From Burkholderiales bacterium (GTDB lineage: Bacteria > Pseudomonadota > Gammaproteobacteria > Burkholderiales > Usitatibacteraceae), in NCBI GenBank assembly GCA_019634955.1, contig JAHCAK010000016.1, positions 1 to 64,000 on the forward strand: a stretch of DNA of 64,000 nt, written 5' to 3'. A model generated the notes under the pieces. The model saw nothing but the letters and a program-made list of their open reading frames with translations. It had not been told where the DNA came from and searched no databases. The position numbers and the translations under genes were made by a program. Below are positions 46,780 through 49,122 of the stretch, piece by piece. How positions within the stretch are numbered: position 1 is the stretch's first letter; the number at the start of each line of letters is the position of its first letter.

Positions 46780-48222
46780 TCAAGCCGCGCCGCCGAAGAC
46801 TTCGACGCCGGCGAAGCGGCAGGCGGGGGAGGCGTGGCCCACGCGGATCGCCTGGTTGGGCTCGCCCTTGCCGCAGAAGGGCGTGCCCAGCACTTCCACG
46901 GTGGCGGCATCGCCCACGCCGGTGAGCGAGCGCCAGAAGGTGGCGGAGATGCCGCGGTAGTTGGGGTTTCGCACCACCTCGGCGAGCCTGCCGCCGCGGA
47001 TCATGCGGCCCCACTCGCAGCCGAACTGGAACTTGTTGCGCGAGTCGTCGATGGACCACGAGACGTTGGTGCGCATCATCACGCCGTGCTCGATGCCGGC
47101 GACGAGCTCCTCCAGCGAGGAGGCGCCCGGCTCGATGTTGAGGTTGGCCATGCGGTCGATGGGCGGGCGGTTCCAGGCGCAGGAACGGGTGTTGGCCACG
47201 CCCGCGATGCCGGCGCGCGCCTGCGAGACCGCGCCGCCCAGCGGCCGCTCGAGGATGCCCCGGCGGATGAGGAACTGCCGCTCGGCGGCGAGCCCGTCGT
47301 CGTCCCAGCCGTAGGAGGCGTACTCGCCGGGGCGCGCGGGGTCGAAAGTCACGTCGAGCAGCTCCGAGCCGTAGCGGTAGGTGCCGAACATGTCGAGCGT
47401 GACGAAGCTCGTGCCGGCGAAGTTCCTCTCGTCGCCGAGGATGCGGTCGAGCTCCAGCGGGTGGCCGATCGACTCGTGGATCTGCAGCATCATCTGGTCG
47501 GGCATGAGCAGCACGTCCATCTTCCCGGTGGGGCAGTTGGGCGCGGCCAGGAGCTCCAGCGCCCCCTCGGCGACGGCGCGGCCGCTGCCCGCGAGGCCGA
47601 ACGCGTCGAGCACCTCGAGGCCGCCTTGCCGGCAGAAGCCGTTGCCGCGGCCGCCGTGGGTGCGCGTCTGCGTGATGCCGTCGGCGTGCGCCGTGGCGGA
47701 CATGTTCGGCACGAGGAAGTGGAACTCCTGCTCGACCTCGCCGCCGTCGGCCGTGACGTAGGCGGCGCGCGTGCGCGTGGTCCACAGGTTCGCCTCCCAG
47801 TCGACGATGCGCGGGTCGATGCGGCACTGCCGCGCCTCCGCGGCCAGCAGCTCGACCTTCTCGCGGCGCGTGAGCCGGGCGGGGTCGTCGGCGACCGCGG
47901 TGGCGAAGCGCCCGGCCGGCCGCGGCATCGCGATCCGGCCGTAGTCGGTGACGGCGCGCCCGGCCGTGAGCGCCGCCAGGCGCTTCGCGCGCATCGCCGC
48001 CTCGCGCAGCCCCGCCGGCGTGAGGTCGCTCGTGGCCGCGTAGCCGAGGCCGCCCTTGTCGATCACGGTCACCATCGCGCCGCGGTCGGTCGCGAGTTGC
48101 GGGGGCTCGGGGACGTCCTGGCGGACGGTGAGGATCTCTGAGGTTTCCTCCATGAAGCGCAAGGCGCAGAAATCGACAGCCGGGGCAACCGCCCTGAATT
48201 CGCGCGCGAGGGTTTCGATCAT
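46780..48222 (-). CDS. TldD-like zinc metallopeptidase
   Basis: 480 residues. The HExxxH motif is intact in QIHESIGHPLELDRILGDE, with GNGFCR-like and TSFVTLDMFG regions typical of TldD. It is the first gene of a two-gene operon with the partner lacking the motif, 2 bases downstream. As other bacteria carry a separate canonical tldD/pmbA pair, this may be a paralogous set with its own substrate. The ATG lies next to a 47-bp sequence repeated in inverted orientation in the upstream gap. Confidence 0.9.
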   Translation of the reverse strand: MIETLAREFRAVAPAVDFCALRFMEETSEILTVRQDVPEPPQLATDRGAMVTVIDKGGLGYAATSDLTPAGLREAAMRAKRLAALTAGRAVTDYGRIAMPRPAGRFATAVADDPARLTRREKVELLAAEARQCRIDPRIVDWEANLWTTRTRAAYVTADGGEVEQEFHFLVPNMSATAHADGITQTRTHGGRGNGFCRQGGLEVLDAFGLAGSGRAVAEGALELLAAPNCPTGKMDVLLMPDQMMLQIHESIGHPLELDRILGDERNFAGTSFVTLDMFGTYRYGSELLDVTFDPARPGEYASYGWDDDGLAAERQFLIRRGILERPLGGAVSQARAGIAGVANTRSCAWNRPPIDRMANLNIEPGASSLEELVAGIEHGVMMRTNVSWSIDDSRNKFQFGCEWGRMIRGGRLAEVVRNPNYRGISATFWRSLTGVGDAATVEVLGTPFCGKGEPNQAIRVGHASPACRFAGVEVFGGAA

Positions 48223-48624
48223 CGGGGCTCCGGCTGATGTGAAGCGGCCGCCTTGCGGCGGCCTTGGCCGGCATTTTACCCCGGAGTTCGGGCCCACCTC
48301 CCGCGCGGCGTGCAAACGCCGCCCTGCCGCCGCGAGGCGGCCCCGTTCTTTCGGCCGGGGCCCCGATGATCGACCCACGCGCGTCGATCAGGATGGAGGC
48401 ACATCGTCGTGCAGGGAGGCGGCGTCGAGCGAAGGGCCGCCCGGGAGGCCGGGGAGGTGTGGTGTGGCTCGGATTCTGGTTTTCGGCCGACTTCAATTCC
48501 CTCCGAAGTCGTCACCCCCGCCTATGTCTCGAAGCCCCCGAAGCTGTCGCCCGGCGCCCCTTCGCTCGGCCGAAAACCAGAAACGAGCCACACCACACCT
48601 CCCCGGCCCGAAAACCGGGGGACT
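48223..48624. other. 402-bp noncoding gap with inverted repeats
   Basis: No convincing gene on either strand. Bases 48217-48262 (minus) and about 48326-48373 (plus) are similar inverted copies, each ending in GCCCCGATGATCGA, which in the first copy contains the tldD start. A longer inverted repeat at 48447-48608 is listed separately. CGATGATCGACC...GTCGATC (48365-48389) forms another small hairpin. CCCCGG...CCGGGG (48601-48620) forms one more just after the GNAT stop. Confidence 0.6.
48447..48608. repeat. long inverted repeat, 43-44-base arms
   Basis: Arms 48447-48490 and 48566-48608 are reverse complements except for one substitution and one indel; each begins GGCCGGGGAGGTGTGGTGTG and ends GGTTTTCGGCCGA on its own strand. 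The 75-base centre has no recognised motif. The structure resembles a miniature inverted-repeat element or a strongly folding RNA. No flanking target duplication was identified. Confidence 0.85.
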
Positions 48625-49122
48625 TCACCTCCGGGCAGGCCAGCCATTCGCAAACGCGGTGAACTCCGGCTCCGTCATGCGCACGAGTTCCCACTCCGGC
48701 AACACCCGGCCTCCAAGCGACTCGTAGAACCGGATCGACGGCTCGTTCCAGTCCAGCACCCGCCACTCGAAGCGCCCGCACCCGCGCTCGACGCAGAGCT
48801 GCGCGAGGTGGCGCAGCATGGCCTTGCCGATGCCGTGGCCGCGGTGCGCGGGCTCGACGAAGACGTCCTCGAGGTAGAGGCCGGGCTTGGCGAGGAAGGT
48901 GGAGAAGGTGGTGAAGAAGAGCGCGAAGCCCACCGCGCGCCCGCCGCGCTCGGCGAGGATGGCCTCGGCCGCGGGGCGCGGGCCGAAGAGGGCGCGCTCG
49001 AGGTCGGCGGCGGTGCCCACCTTCTGGTGCGCGAGCTTCTCGTAGACGGCGAGTTCGTGGACGAGGCGGTCGATCTCGCCGCAGTCGGCGGGCGCGGCGG
49101 GCCGCAGGAGGAATTCGGGCAT
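48625..49122 (-). CDS. GNAT family N-acetyltransferase (diamine acetyltransferase-like)
   Basis: 165 residues covering one GNAT domain. The acetyl-CoA-binding motif A is VFVEPAHRGHGIGKAML (R/Q-x-x-G-x-G/A), preceded by LYLEDVFV and followed by RVLDWNEPSIRFYESLGG, typical of spermidine/spermine or thialysine acetyltransferase-like proteins. Substrate inferred only by resemblance. The stop of gloB lies 10 bases upstream, so the two probably form an operon. Confidence 0.9.
   Translation of the reverse strand: MPEFLLRPAAPADCGEIDRLVHELAVYEKLAHQKVGTAADLERALFGPRPAAEAILAERGGRAVGFALFFTTFSTFLAKPGLYLEDVFVEPAHRGHGIGKAMLRHLAQLCVERGCGRFEWRVLDWNEPSIRFYESLGGRVLPEWELVRMTEPEFTAFANGWPARR

Follow-up and report, generated by a model that had tools for sequence, protein, structure and literature searches.

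An apparently genus-restricted family of palindromic repeats with conserved cores and locus-specific arms

The intergenic gap beside tldD in the window, by which we mean the whole 64,000-nucleotide stretch of DNA analysed here, holds one copy of an apparently undescribed family of palindromic repeats that is restricted, as far as we searched, to a single genus. The unit is ~160 nt long, with some copies lying within decayed palindromes of 260-520 nt; its cores carry conserved edges and a conserved centre, and its arms are specific to each locus. We interpret these repeats as MITE/REPIN-like mobile palindromes whose arms are homogenised, and whose core is flipped, by replication template switching, a reading to which we assign a probability of about 0.6. 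A long stem that covaries is generally accepted as proof that an RNA is functional. Here the covariation is near-perfect over ~40 bp and looks like the outcome of a process at the DNA level, which is a warning for covariation-based RNA discovery. The hairpins, each tagged by its locus, are also natural material for following arm homogenization, core inversion and inverted duplication from one close species to another. None of the open-access papers listed by our literature searches describes the family.

The tldD-gap palindrome and its family

An earlier note on this DNA had described two near-identical arms of 43-44 bases around a 75-base centre in a 402-bp gap beside tldD, and this description is borne out. 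The arms at 48447-48490 (44 nt) and 48566-48608 (43 nt) form 42 Watson-Crick pairs with one mismatch and one extra base at a spacing of 75 nt, and they are aligned by blastn with E values of 1e-14 within 1.8 kb and 5e-12 within the 3.86-Mb genome. This inverted repeat far exceeds chance expectation. The gap runs from the start of tldD (48222) to the stop of an acetyltransferase gene (48625), with Pfam assigning the two neighbours to TldD and GNAT. Folding of both strands, which had also been proposed, gives a very stable predicted fold on either one. The features of this region are as follows.

46780..48222, minus strand: tldD-type metallopeptidase gene, neighbour
48205..48262, no strand assigned: left arm of the second inverted repeat, the tldD start region, present in relatives
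48283..48643, no strand assigned: block missing from the same gap of relatives, with borders as seen against G002
48326..48383, no strand assigned: inverted copy of the tldD start region, within the inserted block
48426..48444, no strand assigned: stretch inverted relative to the right end of the core (48550-48568)
48447..48490, plus strand: left arm, 44 nt, sequence unique to the window locus
48472..48473, plus strand: extra base and mismatch, 17-18 bp from the core, at the family's imperfection cluster
48485..48490, plus strand: left stem/core junction GGCCGA, conserved (alignment A6, columns 15-20)
48491..48565, plus strand by models R1 and R2: core, 75 nt, member of the 38-place family (R1 105 bits, R2 87.7 bits; alignments A4, A6)
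48521..48528, plus strand: centre motif CCTATGTC; compared with CCTATGTCGA, the window copy has TC replacing the last GA
48566..48571, plus strand: right stem/core junction TCGGCC, conserved (A6 columns 99-104)
48566..48608, plus strand: right arm, 43 nt, reverse complement of the left arm
48625..49122, minus strand: GNAT acetyltransferase gene, neighbour, its predicted 3' end overlapped by the inserted block

The second inverted similarity that had been noticed at the start of tldD is also real, and its extent had been understated. The region 48203-48383 is self-complementary (E 6e-18), with arms of 58 nt (48205-48262 and 48326-48383) that are 78% complementary. It starts within the tldD coding sequence and is not centred on the main element; it is an inverted duplication of the tldD start that is separate from this element. 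Four relatives hold only the original tldD start, indicating that the inverted copy at 48326-48383 is the derived one. An alternative pairing that involves the GAGCGAAGG segments, likewise reported before, is found between 48426-48444 and 48550-48568 at 89%, and the first of these stretches may be the remnant of a second copy, like the pair that sister species G001 has in the same gap. On the other side of the gap (48625-48645), the acetyltransferase ends in NGWPARR, where relatives, as read by eye, have shorter and different C-termini.

When the whole 402-bp gap was compared with its own genome by blastn, the sole match was to its own inverted arms. The family of the centre was missed at first reading because the arms are unique to the window locus. 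When 61 genomes were searched, the centre together with the innermost part of the arm matched twice in G001. Both matches fall in the corresponding gap between tldD and the GNAT gene, on two contigs with a 154-nt overlap at 97%. A consensus of these three cores recovered three further copies in the genome of the window (G000) and one in G007, each with its own arms. We built one covariance model from seven copies (R1) and another from 35 copies (R2). R2 locates 38 places in seven of the eight genomes of the genus (8 in G000, 9 in G001, 2 in G002, 3 each in G003 and G004, 2 in G006, 11 in G007 and 0 in G005), where matches on both strands are counted once and the figure for G003 includes two identical contig ends. 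The comparison with relatives that had been suggested thus places the centre in a dispersed family.

Outside the genus, none of 292 genomes among the 300 relatives passes E 0.001 with R2, in a run with stricter filters and 12 candidates scored per genome. The R1 matches found there (E 6.7e-4 or worse) also do not pass E 0.001 with R2, and the two that were inspected (L104 and L105) are without a palindrome; within the genus, L037 of G005 was discarded on inspection by eye because it resembled coding sequence. An exact pattern applied to one genome from each of 84,980 species returned three metagenome-assembled genomes, which are the same as G007, G001 and G004 and are filed as Betaproteobacteria, Lysobacter and Burkholderiales, together with one Muribaculaceae contig that we take as a chance match. 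The pattern had 0 matches in viral contigs, the plasmid records gave only short weak matches in six, all from actinobacteria, and Rfam gave no bacterial match, the hits at E up to 1 being only microRNA models far below their gathering score.

The genomes of the genus are fragmented drafts (90 contigs in G000 and 200-470 in the relatives). Two contigs of G003, C92 and C256, end in an identical 141 nt inside a palindrome (L092:637-777 and L093:615-755). These elements can break assemblies, and copy numbers may therefore be undercounts. The 35-copy statistics given below omit L083, which has lost its right arm, L093, which is the duplicate contig end of L092, and G007:C303; they keep L088 and L092, two contig-end copies with truncated arms, and they include orthologs and same-gap pairs that are not independent. 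Seven gaps contain two copies. In six cases both are within one contig, with starts 280-465 nt apart, and the seventh is the tldD gap of G001, where the pair is spread across the two overlapping contigs.

Chance local duplication, or an assembly artefact at palindromes, is scarcely credible as the source of this family. Some contigs do end inside palindromes, as with the identical end of L092 and L093 and the contigs of L088 and L089 that start in or at one. However, the same core is present in independent assemblies under three project prefixes, it occupies orthologous positions, and copies occur inside long contigs. The conserved core already contradicts chance duplication and probably an artefact as well. 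The local random duplication that the earlier note would have favoured, if all relatives held unrelated sequence and no other copies existed, is likewise at odds with the 38 places found.

Among the 35 copies the core measures 75 nt in 14, 76 nt in 18, 74 nt in two and 77 nt in one, and 23 cores contain an exact CCTATGTCGA. The first two bases (GG) of the GGCC junction do not vary, and only the innermost ~10 bp of the arms are well conserved among copies. Cores range from asymmetric to nearly dyad-symmetric, with self-complement identities of 0.33-0.65. The arms are near-perfect over 39-48 bp in 32 of the 35 copies, the exceptions being the two contig-end copies and one with several indels, and pairing falls off past 40 bp from the core. 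The 5' arm is 74% G+T. Imperfections in the stem are clustered, with 21 of 41 located 16-22 bp from the core, in 20 of the 35 copies (p 2e-6 when copies are treated as independent), and the clustered imperfection is an extra base that occurs 12 times on the 5' arm and three times on the 3' arm. RNAalifold predicts the arm stem only, with no structure inside the core. The arm length fixed near 40 bp and the clustered imperfections suggest a structural constraint.

Presence at a given gap is polymorphic. The tldD gap is empty in five of the eight genomes, filled in G000 and G001, and without a match in G007. The flanks of the empty gap are contiguous within ~40 nt in G002, G003, G004 and G006 and within 79 nt in G005, and relative to G002 the extra block in the window spans 48283-48643. 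A second copy of G000, on contig C17 (L192), has an empty site in six of the seven other genomes, with only one flank matched in G005. This G000-only insertion lies between a gene for a Crp-type regulator and ftsK, directly upstream of this FtsK translocase gene. Two empty sites were compared by eye and neither shows a clean target-site duplication, the borders being blurred there by palindromic or duplicated flank. Between the long copies L078, L089 and L091, 276-366 nt are shared at 67-71%. G007 carries two of these copies, L089 and L091, and has an empty site where L078 would lie. Dispersed copies and empty sites make a MITE-like mobile element the best supported of the three guesses in the earlier note, with the correction that the arms are locus-specific and not shared terminal inverted repeats.

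With regard to gene context, nine of 13 gaps are tandem, four are convergent and none is divergent (p 0.02, assuming a quarter expected), with orientation taken from GC3-based heuristic open reading frames and from direct reading of L082 and the window. Of the nine tandem gaps, three have the core running in the same direction as the genes and six have it in the opposite direction, several of these cores being near-symmetric with a weakly defined orientation.

A functional DNA site for a recombinase, a nucleoid protein or a replication protein would account for several of these properties. Under this explanation the dyad core would be bound by protein, the arms would extrude as a cruciform or a single-stranded hairpin, and the host would make use of the copies. 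The CCTATGTCGA motif in 23 of 35 cores, the GGCCGA edges, the 74-77-nt spacing, the arm length near 40 bp and the clustered stem defect with its extra base mostly on one arm (12 vs 3) are all congruent with such a site. We nevertheless judge it to be unlikely, as carriers contain only 2-11 copies and G005 contains 0, species differ in whether a given gap is filled, and no conserved partner gene was found in a search for PF01797.

How the arms change

The two arms of the stem change together. Among the 20 stem pairs scored in 35 copies, 16 show both-sided change, and the changed cells comprise 162 that are two-sided vs 7 that are one-sided. Pairing is observed in 96.9% of the 700 cells and drops to 33-61% when the stems are slid, and covariation is 0.633 vs 0.197 in shuffles (0/500), the stem having been defined by consensus folding of these very sequences. 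The number of further pair types, one of five covariation measures, was within the range of the shuffles (35 vs 32.3, 64/500). Over the inner 40 bp there are 1,344 Watson-Crick, 10 G-U, 5 A-C and 5 other pairs (1,364 pairs, G-U 0.7%). These counts set aside the gap columns that contig-end copies and the end-gap setting add at 15-19, 25-29 and 35-39 bp. The 10:5 ratio of G-U to A-C is not a significant excess (p 0.30). The same trend is observed between orthologous loci, where eight comparisons, with one copy used twice, gave 34 two-sided vs 6 one-sided pair changes.

As a control we analyzed 6S RNA from the same bacterial family, using 14 genomes (7 of 14 above Rfam's cut-off) and a structure predicted from the alignment. 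This RNA exhibited 39 two-sided and 44 one-sided changes, with G-U in 122 of 854 cells (14%), and its change counts differ from those of the element with a Fisher p of 6e-19. An RNA helix in these bacteria therefore drifts by way of G-U pairs. Since two-sided changes dominate and G-U pairs are rare in the element, unlike in 6S, its arms evolve as DNA and not as an RNA helix. Copying of one DNA arm onto the other would leave such a pattern, and the matching, locus-specific arms have probably arisen through repeated copying of this kind. We also considered whether the arms had been copied from the flanks. By eye, the arms of L078, L088 and L091 appear related, and orthologs have for the most part retained their arms, so that this idea is rejected for the inner 40 bp and kept only for the outer parts.

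These results bear directly on the folding RNA that the earlier note had put forward. Were the family a structured non-coding RNA, it would be transcribed, its 40-bp stem would be selected for RNA pairing and its core would be a functional loop. The strong stem covariation, the very stable predicted fold on either strand, the conserved core motif, the position adjoining the 3' ends of genes in the 13 gaps analysed (0 divergent), and the clustering of imperfections in the middle of the stem are what such an RNA might show. However, G-U makes up 0.7% of arm pairs vs 14% in 6S RNA, one-sided to two-sided changes stand at 7:162 vs 44:39, and G-U does not significantly outnumber A-C (10:5, p 0.30). 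In addition, the core orientation relative to transcription is not fixed (3 same and 6 opposite in tandem gaps, with orientation weakly defined in near-symmetric cores), the core is inverted at one locus, and Rfam has no bacterial match. We therefore regard an RNA family as quite improbable.

Core inversion, exchange and a proposed explanation

Only one locus shows a clear inversion of the core. There, L083 (G001) and L089 (G007) agree in the orientation of a shared left flank and left arm, and their cores match (89%) only with one of them reversed, a comparison judged from the left arm only as the right arm of L083 is missing. From L083:728 onward, on G001 contig C173, other sequence abuts the core edge in place of that arm, and this is possibly an insertion sequence. 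The core of the right copy at L075 also matches that of L086 better when reversed (56/80 vs 41/83 columns); the arms of these two copies differ and a separate insertion is a possible alternative. Orientation is unchanged at four other ortholog pairs, namely L080/L086, L082/L090, L098/L101 and L099/L100.

An inverted core between species at one locus, and the better reversed match of the L075 right copy if this is not a separate insertion, would also be expected of a recombinase-controlled invertible switch (phase variation) that uses the arms as recombination sites. We consider this very unlikely, since beyond the inner ~10 bp the arms share no sequence that one enzyme could read, orientation is constant at the four other close ortholog pairs, and template switching or homologous recombination between the arms suffices.

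Cores and arms do not always diverge in step. At the L080/L086 locus (G001/G007) the cores differ at 17-18 of 76 positions, the flanks by 2-6% (mismatches, gaps set aside) and the arms at 1-5 of 40. The opposite is observed for L082/L090, where the arms differ at 12 of 40 and the core has 6 mismatches of 75. The core divergence at L080/L086 does not fit the model that we propose. The core of L075 is nearer to that of L076, which is at another locus of the same genome and has different arms (0.89), than to that of its ortholog L079 (0.78), as if cores had been exchanged between loci. Past the 40-bp arms, decayed palindromes reach ~520 nt, and inverted ends of neighbouring genes are seen by eye in L075, L076 and L079. 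The recombination hot spot that had been suggested for the window is thus partly right with respect to core inversion and to inverted duplications of gene ends.

In the explanation that we favor, copies would have spread as short hairpin-forming units that are moved by an enzyme acting in trans. Once in place, template switching by DNA polymerase, or conversion within the palindrome, would rewrite one arm from the other, and the arms would therefore drift together without passing through G-U intermediates. The same process could flip the core and could duplicate flanking DNA in inverted orientation, with some selection presumably keeping the core motifs and the arm length. Simple template switching predicts neither the ~40-bp arm length nor the imperfections at 16-22 bp. 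A mobile hairpin of another sort is conceivable though doubtful. Its core would be the only heritable part, its 40-bp arms would be re-made by self-templating at each locus to give a locus-specific signature, the core would move, flip or be exchanged via a folded single-strand intermediate, and an undescribed enzyme would determine the near-fixed arm length and the extra base in the middle of the stem.

Candidate movers and comparison with known systems

For mobile palindromes maintained by template switching, as favored here, Y1 transposases (PF01797) were searched as candidate movers, and they occur at six loci in five of the eight genomes. The PF01797 search found none in G002 and G003, both of which carry the element. 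The flanks of the six Y1 loci show no blastn similarity to element loci below 1e-4, and the only R2 matches at these loci are two weak and short ones of 43 and 51 nt (E 0.005 and 0.006, respectively). A Y1 transposase is thus unsupported as the mover, with none found in two carriers and flanking repeats unrelated by blastn, and no transposase from PF01797, the enzyme family searched, could be tied to the family. The Y1 genes, which are IS200-like, are themselves flanked by strong palindromic repeats that differ in sequence, such as GGGGTCAGGTTACTTTGCACA and TAGACCGGTTCCG, and that resemble published TIRYT repeats (L200:1010-1064, 1797-1846; L201:1249-1332, 2135-2218; L202; L203; L204; L205:1341-1403, 2135-2199).

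TIRYT repeats, or 'TIRtrons', are described as inverted repeats with many dimers, some having GGGG near the outer end (PMC3733652). The element resembles them in its inverted repeats and doubled copies, and the genus does have Y1 genes flanked by palindromic repeats. The TIRYT-type motif GGGGWSAS is present in only 3 of 35 copies.

REP and REPIN sequences associated with RAYT are short palindromic extragenic hairpins found mostly at tandem or convergent genes (PMC3733652), and REPINs are reported to have conserved inverted half-sites with compensatory hairpin changes (PMC3116915). The element is similarly a short extragenic palindromic hairpin, located in tandem and convergent gaps, with compensatory arm changes. 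There are several important differences. REPIN ends are conserved and the middle is variable (PMC3116915), whereas the present family has a conserved middle and variable outer arms. REPs usually exceed 100 per genome (PMC2817692) in contrast to 2-11 copies per carrier, and G-T pairs are often seen in GTAG REP stems (PMC3733652) in contrast to the near absence of G-U in these arms. A shared REP tag is also lacking near the outer arm ends, where GTAG/CTAC are present in 2 and 3, and CGTC/GACG in 3 and 4, of the 33 full-margin copies, with any tag at one position in at most 6 of the 33. The unit is ~160 nt vs the 20-40-bp palindrome of a REP, and none of the six Y1 loci has a RAYT (Y1) gene flanked by the element.

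Bacterial MITEs, which include RUP, NEMIS and ERIC (PMC3733652), are small non-coding intergenic elements with inverted repeats that are mobilised in trans (PMC10969869). Their terminal repeats are recognised by a transposase (PMC3733652), from which we infer that these repeats are shared within a family. The family described here is MITE-like in its dispersed non-coding copies and polymorphic insertion (38 places, empty sites). It is unlike a MITE in that the inverted repeats formed by its arms are locus-specific. A clean target-site duplication was not seen at the two empty sites with their blurred borders, and the PF01797 search found no parent transposon.

Template switching is reported to produce arm homogenization and spacer inversion (PMC8604942), and to make and maintain hairpins and give compensatory changes in them (PMC8794818). 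The element agrees with quasipalindrome correction, as these sources present it, in its identical arms, inverted spacer and several paired changes at once, with arm homogenization observed between orthologs (34 vs 6) and spacer inversion at one locus (L083/L089, left arm only). The cases described in the cited passages, which also refer to long ones, are short repeats or rRNA hairpins, unlike the ~40-bp arms, dispersed family and conserved core found here. As the element fails tested defining features of both MITE and REPIN, we file it as a small palindromic mobile repeat that is a member of neither group.
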